Positions 6,133 to 30,136 of a stretch of 39,345 bases of DNA are shown here, piece after piece (positions within the stretch are counted from its first letter, which is position 1; each line of letters opens with the position of its first letter). Made by a program: the position numbers and the translations under genes. The notes beneath the pieces are model-generated. The model ran no database searches. It was given only the letters and a program-made list of their open reading frames with translations, and was not told the origin of the DNA. Source of the DNA: Microbacteriaceae bacterium (GTDB lineage Bacteria > Actinomycetota > Actinomycetes > Actinomycetales > Microbacteriaceae); assembly GCA_025464895.1 (NCBI GenBank), contig JAODMG010000055.1, positions 1 through 39,345 on the forward strand, in the 5' to 3' direction.

Positions 6133-6501
6133 ATGGACTGGAAAATCGAACTCATTCCCGTGCCCGTGACGGACGTCGACCGGGCGAAGTCGTTCTACGT
6201 CGACCAGGTCGGTTACAACGCCGACCACGACCATCAGGTCACCCCGCAACTCAGGTTCGTGCAGCTGACCCCTCCCGGGTCGGCGTGCTCGATCGTCATC
6301 GGTGACGGCATCACCGACATGGTTCCCGGCTCCCAGAACATCCAACTCGTCGTGACGGACGCGGATGCCGCCAGAGCCCAACTCATCGCCGCCGGGGTCG
6401 ATGCGAGCGAGGTGGACAATCAACCGTGGGGTCGTTTCGTGTACTTTGCCGACCCGGACGGCAACCGCTGGTCGGTGCAGGAGATCGTCAGCGCAAGTTA
6501 G
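6133..6501 (+). CDS. VOC/glyoxalase family protein
   Basis: MDWKIELIPVPVTDVDRAKSFYVDQVGYNADHD...WGRFVYFADPDGNRWSVQE. Confidence 0.88.
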   Translation: MDWKIELIPVPVTDVDRAKSFYVDQVGYNADHDHQVTPQLRFVQLTPPGSACSIVIGDGITDMVPGSQNIQLVVTDADAARAQLIAAGVDASEVDNQPWGRFVYFADPDGNRWSVQEIVSAS

Positions 6502-6513
6502 CGACGGCACCAA

Positions 6514-7770
6514 CTAGTCCAATTCGGCGATCCTCCGGGCGAAGAAGCGTCGCTCCGGTTCGGATGGGGCCAGGGCGATGGCGTCCCGGTAACAGAGGAT
6601 CGCGTCATCCGCCCTGCCCAATCGCCGCAGCAGGTCGCCCCGCGCCGCCGCAAGAAGGTAGTAGTCGGCGAGCACCGGCTGGAGGCTGGAGACCAGCGCA
6701 AGGCCGACCTCCGGTCCATCGAGCATGGCGACGGCGATCGCCCGGCTCAGCTCGATCACCGGTGACGGATGTATCACCCGTAGTTGATCGTAGAGCTCCA
6801 CGATCTGCGCCCAGTCGGTCTCGTCGGCGGTGGCCGCCTCCGCCTGGCAGGCCGCGATTGCCGCCTGTACCTGATAGCTCCCCGGCCGGCGTCGGCGAAG
6901 GGCGCTCTCCAGGATGCTGAGGCCTTCGTCGATGGCACCGCGATCCCAGAGGCCGCGATCCTGCTCCTCGAGCGTGAGCGGAACCCCGTCCTCGCCCATC
7001 CGCGCGTCCCTCCTGGAGTCCTGCAGCAGCATGAGCGCGAGCAGCCCCGTCGCCTCCGGCTCATCCGGCATGAGCTGCACGAGCGCCCTGGTGACCCGAA
7101 TCGCTTCACTGGCGAGAGGGCGGGATGAGGCGCTGTACCCCTCGTTGAACAACAGGTACAGCACGGCGAGCACTCCCCCGAGCCGTTCGCCCAGGAGGTG
7201 CGCCGGCGGCACCCGATACGGAATGCCGGCGTTCTTGATCTTGCGCTTCGCCCGCACCAATCGCTGCGACATCGCCTGTTCCGGCAGCAGGAACCCACGA
7301 GCGATCTGGGCGGTGCTGAGCCCGGCCACGGTGCGAAGGGTCAGCGCGACGCGGGCCTCCGGCGTCAGTGCGGGATGGCAGCAGGTGAAGATCAGCCGCA
7401 GCCGATCGTCGACGATCTCGTCGTCGCGGTCGTACTCTGCTGCCCACGATTCCAGCTCGTTCATGATTCCGATTTCCCTCAGTTTCGAGGCTTCGGATGC
7501 CGCACGCCGCAGCCTATCGACCGCGCGGTTCTTCGCCGCCGTCGTCAGCCAAGCTCCCGGATTGCGCGGAACCCCGTCGCGCGCCCATCGTTGTAGCGCG
7601 AGCTCGAAGGCATCCTGCGCCGAATCCTCGGCAAGGCTCCAGTCGCCGGTGATGCGAATCAGGGTGGCGATGATCCGCCCCCAATCGGACTCGTACGCCG
7701 TAGCGACTGCGGCGGCGACCACCGCCGTTGCCGAATCGGCGTCGGCGACGGTCGGCGCGGAGCGAGCCAT
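6514..7770 (-). CDS. ECF42-type RNA polymerase sigma factor with C-terminal extension (DUF6596/TPR-like)
   Basis: MARSAPTVADAD...LIRITGDWSLAEDSAQDAFELALQRWARDGVPRNPGAWLTTAAKNRAVDRLRR; FTCCHPALTPEARVALTLRTVAGLSTAQIARGFLLPEQAMSQRLVRAKRKI; long C-terminal extension; directly follows a YCII/DGPF gene. Confidence 0.92.
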   Translation of the reverse strand: MARSAPTVADADSATAVVAAAVATAYESDWGRIIATLIRITGDWSLAEDSAQDAFELALQRWARDGVPRNPGAWLTTAAKNRAVDRLRRAASEASKLREIGIMNELESWAAEYDRDDEIVDDRLRLIFTCCHPALTPEARVALTLRTVAGLSTAQIARGFLLPEQAMSQRLVRAKRKIKNAGIPYRVPPAHLLGERLGGVLAVLYLLFNEGYSASSRPLASEAIRVTRALVQLMPDEPEATGLLALMLLQDSRRDARMGEDGVPLTLEEQDRGLWDRGAIDEGLSILESALRRRRPGSYQVQAAIAACQAEAATADETDWAQIVELYDQLRVIHPSPVIELSRAIAVAMLDGPEVGLALVSSLQPVLADYYLLAAARGDLLRRLGRADDAILCYRDAIALAPSEPERRFFARRIAELD

Positions 7771-8105
7771 CAGGCCTCGAAGGGCCAGAACGGTCTGATC
7801 TCGATCCGGCCGAAGCGGGCCATCGGATGCTTGGATGCGACCTCGATCGCCTCGTCGAGGTCGTTGCACTCGAGCACGTCGAAGCCGGCTATCCACTCCT
7901 TGGTCTCGGCGAACGGACCATCGGTCACGAGGAGCTCGTCCCCGCGCATCCGCACGGTCGTCGCGTCCTCCACCGGCCGGAGCCGATCTCCGAGCACCGA
8001 TATTCCGCGGCGGTCGTTCTCGGCCACCCACTCCTCGATGTTGTCGAGGCCGGCGTCGTATTTTTCCGCCTCCGGGTCGGTAGCGATGAAAAGCATGTAG
8101 CGCAT
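7770..8105 (-). CDS. YCII-related (DGPF) domain protein
   Basis: MRYMLFIATDPEAEKYDAG...LLVTDGPFAETKEWIAGFDVLECNDLDEAIEVASKHP; 1-nt TGATG overlap with the sigma gene. Confidence 0.93.
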   Translation of the reverse strand: MRYMLFIATDPEAEKYDAGLDNIEEWVAENDRRGISVLGDRLRPVEDATTVRMRGDELLVTDGPFAETKEWIAGFDVLECNDLDEAIEVASKHPMARFGRIEIRPFWPFEA

Positions 8106-8159
8106 TCGGTTCTCCTCGTGTTCAGACCGCAGGTGAATATTCCGACGGTATGTGAATAC

Positions 8160-8186
8160 GACGAACGGCGGAAGGCCAAACAGACA
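8160..8186 (-). promoter_or_regulatory. Putative ECF42-type promoter: TGTCTG-N17-CGTC upstream of the YCII-sigma operon
   Basis: Minus strand reads TGTCTG TTTGGCCTTCCGCCGTT CGTC GTA; same layout as at 29772-29798. Confidence 0.55.
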
Positions 8187-8219: not shown

Positions 8220-9251
8220 TCAGGCCAGCTGTTCTCGCACCATCGGAGCGACCTCACGGCCATAGAGCTCGATCGAGGTCATCAGTTTTTCGTGTGGCAG
8301 CGTTCCGTTGGAGTACTTCAGGTCGAAGCGGGAGAGCCCGAGGGCCGTGGCCGCGCGGACGATCTTCGCCGCGACCGTCGTCGGCGAGCCGACCATCAAC
8401 GCACCATCCGTCGCCTCGTGGTCGAAGTCTTCCCTTGTCATAGGAGGCCAGCCGCGCTCGCGCCCGATTCGATCCCGGTTGGCACGGAAGTGCGGCCAGA
8501 GCTCTGCCCTGGCCTGATCGTCGGTCGCCGCGATGTGTCCAGGCGAATGAGCGCCAACCGGCAGTTCCGGCCGGTCGAATTGGGCGAGCGCCCGCTTGTA
8601 CAGGTCGACGTACGGCGCGAAGCGCACCGGATCCCCGCCGATGATGGCGAGCATGAGCGGCAGTCCATGGCCGGCCGCACGCACGACCGACTCGGGAGAC
8701 CCCCCGACTCCGACCCAGGTGGTGATCGAACCGGATTCGGTCGGCGGATAGACGGACTGGTTGACCAGGCTGGCGCGGGTCTCTCCAGACCAGGTGACCG
8801 GTTCTTCGCGCAAGAGGTGCGTGAACAGGTCGATCTTCTCTTCGAACAGCTTCTCGTAATCGGCGAGATCAAAGCCGAATAGCGGGAACGACTCCGTGAA
8901 CGAGCCCCGCCCGAGGATGATCTCGGCGCGACCGTTGGAGAGCGCGTCAAGGGTAGAGAAACGCTCGAACACGCGGACGGGATCATCCGAGCTCAGCACT
9001 GTCACTCCGGTTCCGAGGCGGATATGGGAGGTGCGGCCCGCAATCGCGGCGAGCACGGTCTCAGGGGACGACACGGCGAAATCGTCCCGGTGGTGCTCGC
9101 CGAGTGCGATGTGGTCGATGCCGAGCTGGTCGGCGAGCACCGCCTGATCCACGATGTTGCGGATGGTTTGGGCGTGCGTCAGCAACGTGCCATCGTCGGT
9201 GGCGGTTACGTCGCCGAAGGTGTCGAGTCCGAGCGTGAGTTGTTGTGCCAT
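8220..9251 (-). CDS. LLM class flavin-dependent oxidoreductase
   Basis: MAQQLTLGLDTFGDVTA...ALGEHHRDDFAVSSPETVLAAIAGRTSHIRLGTGVTVLSSDDPVRVFERFSTLDALSNGRAEIILGRGSF. Confidence 0.92.
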   Translation of the reverse strand: MAQQLTLGLDTFGDVTATDDGTLLTHAQTIRNIVDQAVLADQLGIDHIALGEHHRDDFAVSSPETVLAAIAGRTSHIRLGTGVTVLSSDDPVRVFERFSTLDALSNGRAEIILGRGSFTESFPLFGFDLADYEKLFEEKIDLFTHLLREEPVTWSGETRASLVNQSVYPPTESGSITTWVGVGGSPESVVRAAGHGLPLMLAIIGGDPVRFAPYVDLYKRALAQFDRPELPVGAHSPGHIAATDDQARAELWPHFRANRDRIGRERGWPPMTREDFDHEATDGALMVGSPTTVAAKIVRAATALGLSRFDLKYSNGTLPHEKLMTSIELYGREVAPMVREQLA

Positions 9252-29752: not shown

Positions 29753-29788
29753 GTGTCGATTTGGCGTGCCGTGTCGATTTGGCGAGCC
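29753..29788 (+). repeat. Tandem 18-bp direct repeat GTGTCGATTTGGCGNGCC x2
   Basis: 29753-29770 and 29771-29788, 17/18 identical. Confidence 0.85.
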
Positions 29789-29798
29789 CCCGACCGTC
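29772..29798 (+). promoter_or_regulatory. Putative ECF42-type promoter TGTCGA-N17-CGTC
   Basis: TGTCGA TTTGGCGAGCCCCCGAC CGTC GTA, about 50 bp upstream of the YCII-like gene at 29849. Confidence 0.6.
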
Positions 29799-29848
29799 GT
29801 AGCAGTGAGTCGGCAATCCAGCCGACCCACGATCGGAAGGAACACACC

Positions 29849-30136
29849 ATGTCCAGCTACGTTTTGTCATTTCGCAACGATCCAGACGTGACGGCCAGCC
29901 AGGAAGAAGTCGACGAGTGGGGCGCCTGGTTCCAGAGCCTCGGCAGCACCGTCACCGACATGGGAAGTCGAATCGGCGGCGTCACCCTGCTCGGCGAGGG
30001 CGCCGGGGCCAACGCCCTGTCCGGATACGTCATCATCGATGCGGCCGACTCGGCGAAGGCAGTCGATGTCGCCTCGGGATGCCCCGGCCTTCGCCACGGA
30101 GGAAGTGTCGAGGTCGGCGAACAGATCGCGATGTAG
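29849..30136 (+). CDS. YCII-like small protein (95 aa)
   Basis: MSSYVLSFRNDPDVTASQEEVDEWGAWFQSLGSTVTDMGSRIGG...GYVIIDAADSAKAVDVASGCPGLRHGGSVEVGEQI; same pattern as the 7770-8105 protein. Confidence 0.78.
   Translation: MSSYVLSFRNDPDVTASQEEVDEWGAWFQSLGSTVTDMGSRIGGVTLLGEGAGANALSGYVIIDAADSAKAVDVASGCPGLRHGGSVEVGEQIAM

Follow-up and report, generated by a model that had tools for sequence, protein, structure and literature searches.

The question raised by this locus is whether the sequence at positions 8157-8186, upstream of a two-gene YCII-sigma operon in an assembly of a Microbacteriaceae bacterium, is a promoter read by an ECF42-type sigma factor, and whether it belongs to the same regulon as a similar site near position 29772 of the same window, i.e. 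the whole 39,345-nucleotide stretch of DNA that was analysed (Table 1). The sigma factor of the operon, hereafter sigma A, has ECF-type sigma-2 and sigma-4 regions followed by a C-terminal extension, adjoins a YCII/DGPF gene (7770-8105) that lies directly upstream with a one-base overlap, and has no anti-sigma gene. Its Pfam matches are Sigma70_r2, Sigma70_r4_2 and DUF6596 (1e-31, residues 196-290), it scores above the cut-off of NCBIfam sigma70-ECF, and the TPR matches at residues 368-408 are weak, falling short of the TPR cut-offs. The genome holds two DUF6596 genes, of which sigma A is one; contig C168 carries another YCII gene and, downstream of it, a second ECF42-type sigma factor (sigma B, which shares 36% identity with sigma A). 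The operon is flanked by genes for an LLM monooxygenase and for a VOC protein. The former (8220-9251, minus strand; LLM class, Atu2307/SP_0267 family, TIGR03858) lies directly upstream, with its stop codon 33 bp from the promoter, and the latter, a VOC/glyoxalase-like gene (6136-6501, plus strand), is convergent with sigma A; no ECF42-type motif was seen upstream of it.

Table 1. Positions of the promoters, genes and repeat discussed in the text, in window coordinates.
Feature	Position	Strand	Details and basis
Putative ECF42-type promoter of the YCII-sigma operon	8157-8186	-	Conserved in relatives L012 and L013
Parts of the operon promoter	-35 8186-8181; -10 8163-8160	-	-35 TGTCTG; spacer 17 nt; -10 CGTC, then GTA
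Predicted transcription start	8151	-	Motif position 36, A after C; YR initiator; S. meliloti RpoE10 promoters
YCII (DGPF motif) protein, operon gene 1	7770-8105	-	111 aa; Pfam PF03795, E=3e-15
Sigma A, ECF42-type	6514-7770	-	418 aa; sigma-2, sigma-4, DUF6596, TPR-like C-terminal extension; Pfam
Second putative ECF42-type promoter	29772-29801	+	-35 TGTCGA; -10 CGTC, then GTA; conserved before G027 orthologue
Solo YCII-like protein	29849-30136	+	95 aa; without DGPF motif; without adjoining sigma gene; Pfam YCII
18-bp tandem duplication	29753-29788	+	Two copies of GTGTCGATTTGGCGWGCC; doubles -35 and TTTGGC stretch

Within the window, the minus strand from 8186 to 8157 reads TGTCTGTTTGGCCTTCCGCCGTTCGTCGTA and the plus strand from 29772 to 29801 reads TGTCGATTTGGCGAGCCCCCGACCGTCGTA, both of the form TGTC-N19-CGTCGTA. 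Both sequences, their shared pattern and the 17-nt spacer between TGTCNN and CGTC are thus as the preliminary description had given them. The full pattern TGTCNNTTTGGCN11CGTCGTA has two exact matches in the window, as compared with 0.07 expected in shuffled versions of the window even with three mismatches allowed. The genome-wide scan with a list of downstream genes that had been proposed was carried out by pattern searches across the whole assembly (2.83 Mb, 239 contigs, 87% complete), in which TGTCNNTTNSSN12CGTCRT has exactly three perfect matches, at 8158-8186 (minus), 29772-29800 (plus) and C168:4061-4089 (plus; TGTCGATTTCGCGAACACTCGTTCGTCGT), and the TTTGGC version returned the same three sites as two perfect matches and one with a single mismatch. 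All three perfect sites precede YCII-family genes, the start codons of which (8105, minus; 29849, plus; C168:4137, plus) lie 76-81 nt downstream, and two of these genes head YCII-ECF42 sigma operons. The third, the solo gene at 29849-30136, was absent from the preliminary description; its Pfam YCII match (E=2e-4, in the longer open reading frame) is just below the cut-off, and an NCBIfam streptavidin match for the same protein was discarded as spurious (21 bits, the cut-off being 300). The only other YCII-like sequence in the genome is a fragment match on contig C84, which was left out as a weak 30-residue match on a contig with no motif match.

To place these sites in a wider context, upstream regions of ECF42 loci (the 650 nt preceding the sigma gene) were searched in a first set of 171 loci, 80 from named genomes and the rest from the whole genomes of relatives and from the present genome. 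TGTC-N19-CGWC occurs in 90 of the 171 regions, compared with 1-12 for each of the other spacers from 14 to 24 and with 4 for spacer 19 in the antisense control on the same loci. After extension by 90 more loci from the class and thinning of redundancy to 198 loci, spacer 19 was found in 93, against 2-16 for other spacers. The resulting logo comprises TGTCGA at positions 1-6, CCGTTCGWC around positions 19-27 and a YR step at 35/36, in agreement with the TGTCGA and CGWC elements with which ECF42 promoters are associated. The Y35R36 initiator is present in 159 of the 176 detected sites, as expected for a start site 9 nt after CGWC. With a leave-one-out matrix, 120 of 170 loci scored above 95% of the antisense scores, and among the 50 loci that scored lowest, 18 have a candidate site at a distance of 600-1300 nt upstream, usually a close match. 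One of these loci (L172, G038:C11) carries two tandem YCII genes before one ECF42 sigma gene, with a candidate promoter further upstream. Close relatives of the window's operon keep its promoter as TGTCGTTTTCGCTTCCTTCCGTTCGTCGTA (L012) and TGTCGTATTTGCTTCCGCTCGTTCGTCGTA (L013). Conservation before orthologous YCII-ECF42 operons was the main test by which the promoter proposal was to stand or fall, and the core is conserved there, which supports the ECF42-type identity; on these comparative data, TGTC-N19-CGWC is a real promoter class.

Variation around this core was of several kinds. In several clades the base after CGTTCGT is G, A or T rather than C, and in L073, L077, L079, L086, L091 and others (Lentzea etc.) the -10 element is CGTTCGTAC or CGTTCGTG and not CGWC, so that these sites are missed by the usual CGWC definition. 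In L257, L264, L265, L267 and L281, TGTATATG or TGTATGTG replaces TGTCGA while the -10 element CGTTCGTCGTC is intact, apparently representing a variant -35. No single clear sigma residue accompanied the choice between CGTC and CGAC at position 26. The full TGTCGA element is likewise common but not defining, as the end of the -35 differs from GA in 37 of 120 ECF42-operon sites, with only 8 changes between TGTCGA and other ends on the sigma tree (FastTree, 120 rows); it is present at 29772 and absent from the operon promoter, which has TGTCTG at 8186-8181.

Two explanations that dispense with an ECF sigma factor were weighed against these observations. Chance matching to a low-complexity, GC-rich pattern could draw on the single one-mismatch matches to TGTCNNTTNSSN12CGTCRT that occur at other places in the genome, but the perfect matches number only three and all precede YCII genes, and the strong spacer-19 peak at ECF42 loci relative to the antisense and other-spacer controls led to its rejection as extremely improbable. 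An operator of another regulator, or a sigma-70 promoter, is also very unlikely, because the fixed 19-nt spacing of the two blocks, the initiator at a fixed distance and the linkage to ECF42 operons are in keeping with an ECF promoter, and because published targets of the Sinorhizobium meliloti ECF42 factor RpoE10 carry the same motif (PMC6180224). With a TGTC -35 and a CGWC-type -10 at fixed spacing upstream of a YCII gene, the sequence at 8157-8186 is, with high confidence, an ECF42-type promoter of the YCII-ECF42 operon, as judged from comparative sequence evidence.

The preliminary description had further suggested that TTTGGC, located just after the -35, may be a lineage-specific extended element. 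As stated this did not hold, since exact TTTGGC is found in only 1 of 176 ECF42-operon sites, that of the window's own operon, in addition to the site at 29772, which rules it out as a fixed extended -35; TTT alone is found in 20 of the 176. The looser form TTT[CG]GC is present in 4 of 176 operon sites (those of sigma A with its relative L012 and of sigma B with its relative L164) and in 2 of 4 solo-YCII sites (29772 and G102:297802). Together these make up 6 of the 10 Microbacteriaceae sites of A or B type, from two sub-groups, versus 0 of 170 others. What survives of the suggestion is therefore an enrichment in Microbacteriaceae, and TTT[CG]GC is, at the sequence level, an enriched local variant and not a defining element. 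Kinship of the sites may be behind part of this enrichment.

Whether the two window promoters form one regulon is doubtful. Under a single-regulon reading, sigma A would read both (and perhaps the C168 site too), with TTTGGC as a shared extended -35. TTTGGC and CGTCGTA are indeed identical in both window sites, TTT[CG]GC is common to A- and B-type Microbacteriaceae sites and is found nowhere else in the 176, and glutamine 169 of sigma A is the residue usually paired with TGTCG. However, the -35 elements differ (TGTCTG versus TGTCGA), and TGTCGA is found in none of the 19 sigma A-group sites, a group made up of sigma A plus the 18 closest relatives that have a site (two Microbacteriaceae, eleven Kribbella, two Kutzneria, Amycolatopsis, Haloechinothrix and one uncultured actinobacterium). 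The site at 29772 instead resembles B-type sites, TGTCGA being carried by sigma B, its relative L164 and 29772. Further, an orthologue of the solo YCII protein (67% identical) in a genome of another genus (G027) is accompanied by a sigma B homologue but not by one of sigma A: no sigma A-group factor was found in G027, where the factor closest to sigma A belongs to a different clade and has another -10. The solo-YCII site of G027, TGTCGATTTCGGATGCGCTCTCACGTCGTA, lies at the same distance from the start codon as in the window, and its ...CTCACGTCGTA resembles the ...CTCGCACGTCGTA of the sigma B homologue's site (TGTCGATTTCGCGGGGTCTCGCACGTCGTA), 28 kb away. In a second species of that genus (G102), the sigma B homologue is paired with another solo YCII gene. 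One other match, G027:3354501, was set aside, as its spacer sequence differs and no YCII gene was assigned to it.

On this evidence a single regulon appears unlikely, if far from negligible, and the favoured reading is that 29772 and the operon promoter probably belong to different sigma factors and hence to two regulons; the solo YCII gene falls more probably in the sigma B regulon, given the match between its TGTCGA site and the sites of sigma B and relatives. As the assembly is 87% complete, a third ECF42 gene could be hidden. The second -35 also sits inside the 18-bp duplication at 29753-29788, which is absent from the G027 orthologue, and which may be a slippage product or may alter promoter strength.

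A possible basis for such a separation lies in the sigma-4 recognition helix. Covariation between ECF sigma factors and their promoters is an established approach, and in a scan of all sigma residues against eight promoter features, from which the following rule arose, residue 169 (sigma A numbering, within the sigma-4.2 match) was by far the most informative on the base that follows TGTC, at 0.49 bits above the shuffles versus 0.21 for the next residue. Within the first set, Q was accompanied by G in 82 of 83 cases, A by G in 11 of 11, and K or R by C or T in 23 of 23. Among new loci, for which 56 sites were scored without positions 5-7, Q or A with an intact TGTC was accompanied by G in 46 of 46 and K or R by C in 4 of 5, counts that exclude five Q cases with TGTA for TGTC set aside after the fact. 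A tree-aware test gave six independent pairs, four to five as expected and none against (p ~0.06), which is not significant alone. Only one Q case in the first set departs from this pattern, namely the operon of the window itself, with TGTCTG; sigma A shares serine 168 with Kribbella factors having TGTCTG promoters, and S168 fits TG. Our tentative proposal, given slightly less than an even chance, is that residue 169 sets the base after TGTC, with residues 168 and 172 assisting, and so keeps the YCII regulons of the paralogues apart, leaving sigma A and sigma B one promoter each in the window. Such a rule for ECF42 was not found in the literature consulted, which comprised work other than the main ECF42 papers.

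From the known behaviour of ECF factors, a mechanism can be proposed in which RNA polymerase with an ECF42 sigma factor would most likely read 8157-8186, the first candidate being the operon's own sigma A. Sigma-4 would contact the -35 TGTC, sigma-2 would melt the DNA at CGTTCGTC, 19 nt downstream of TGTC, and transcription would start 9 nt past CGTC, at 8151, giving a 46-nt leader before the YCII ATG. Active sigma A would then stimulate transcription of the operon that encodes it, forming a positive loop, and the same promoter class would drive the sigma B operon on C168 as well as the solo YCII gene (29849). Sigma contact, autoregulation and the assignment of sigma factors to sites are what we infer here. 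Autoregulation by sigma A is plausible and on balance quite probable, although Q169 pairs with TGTCG in all other Q cases with an intact TGTC, which argues against sigma A at its own promoter.

The closest characterised parallel is RpoE10 of S. meliloti, where a YCII gene is likewise followed by an ECF42 gene and the promoters read TGTC-N19-CGTC (PMC6180224, Table 1). That table marks transcription start sites; the SMc01149 and SMb20475 promoters as printed end at motif position 36, with the start of SMc01149 as a lower-case letter, so that RpoE10 start sites appear to lie at this position. RpoE10 differs in its -35 element, TGTCGG, and in its targets outside the operon, which include glyoxalase-like genes and not solo YCII genes, and its own YCII gene was not induced when RpoE10 was overexpressed (PMC6180224), a result that counts against autoregulation. 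The ECF42 factors of Streptomyces venezuelae (Sven_0747, Sven_4377 and Sven_7131, with DGPF/YCII genes; Liu et al. 2018), to the extent that they are described in a review (PMC8999054), share with the window a TPR-like C-terminal extension, a YCII-domain neighbour and the lack of an anti-sigma gene; the window is set apart by the TGTCTG -35 of its own operon and by a solo YCII gene that has this class of promoter too. According to the same review (PMC8999054), the TPR-like extension is essential for ECF42 activity, and a regulatory role is suggested for the YCII protein.

The YCII-ECF42 operon with its own promoter is thus a known type of system, to which useful detail is added here. ECF42 factors are widespread and often present in multiple copies within a genome, with up to nine matches per genome among those examined, and to our knowledge little is established about the targets of individual copies. 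The strict comparative motif together with the initiator would make sequence-based prediction of regulons possible, even for solo YCII genes that lie far from a sigma gene, and the recognition-helix rule, if true, would tell which paralogue reads which promoter.
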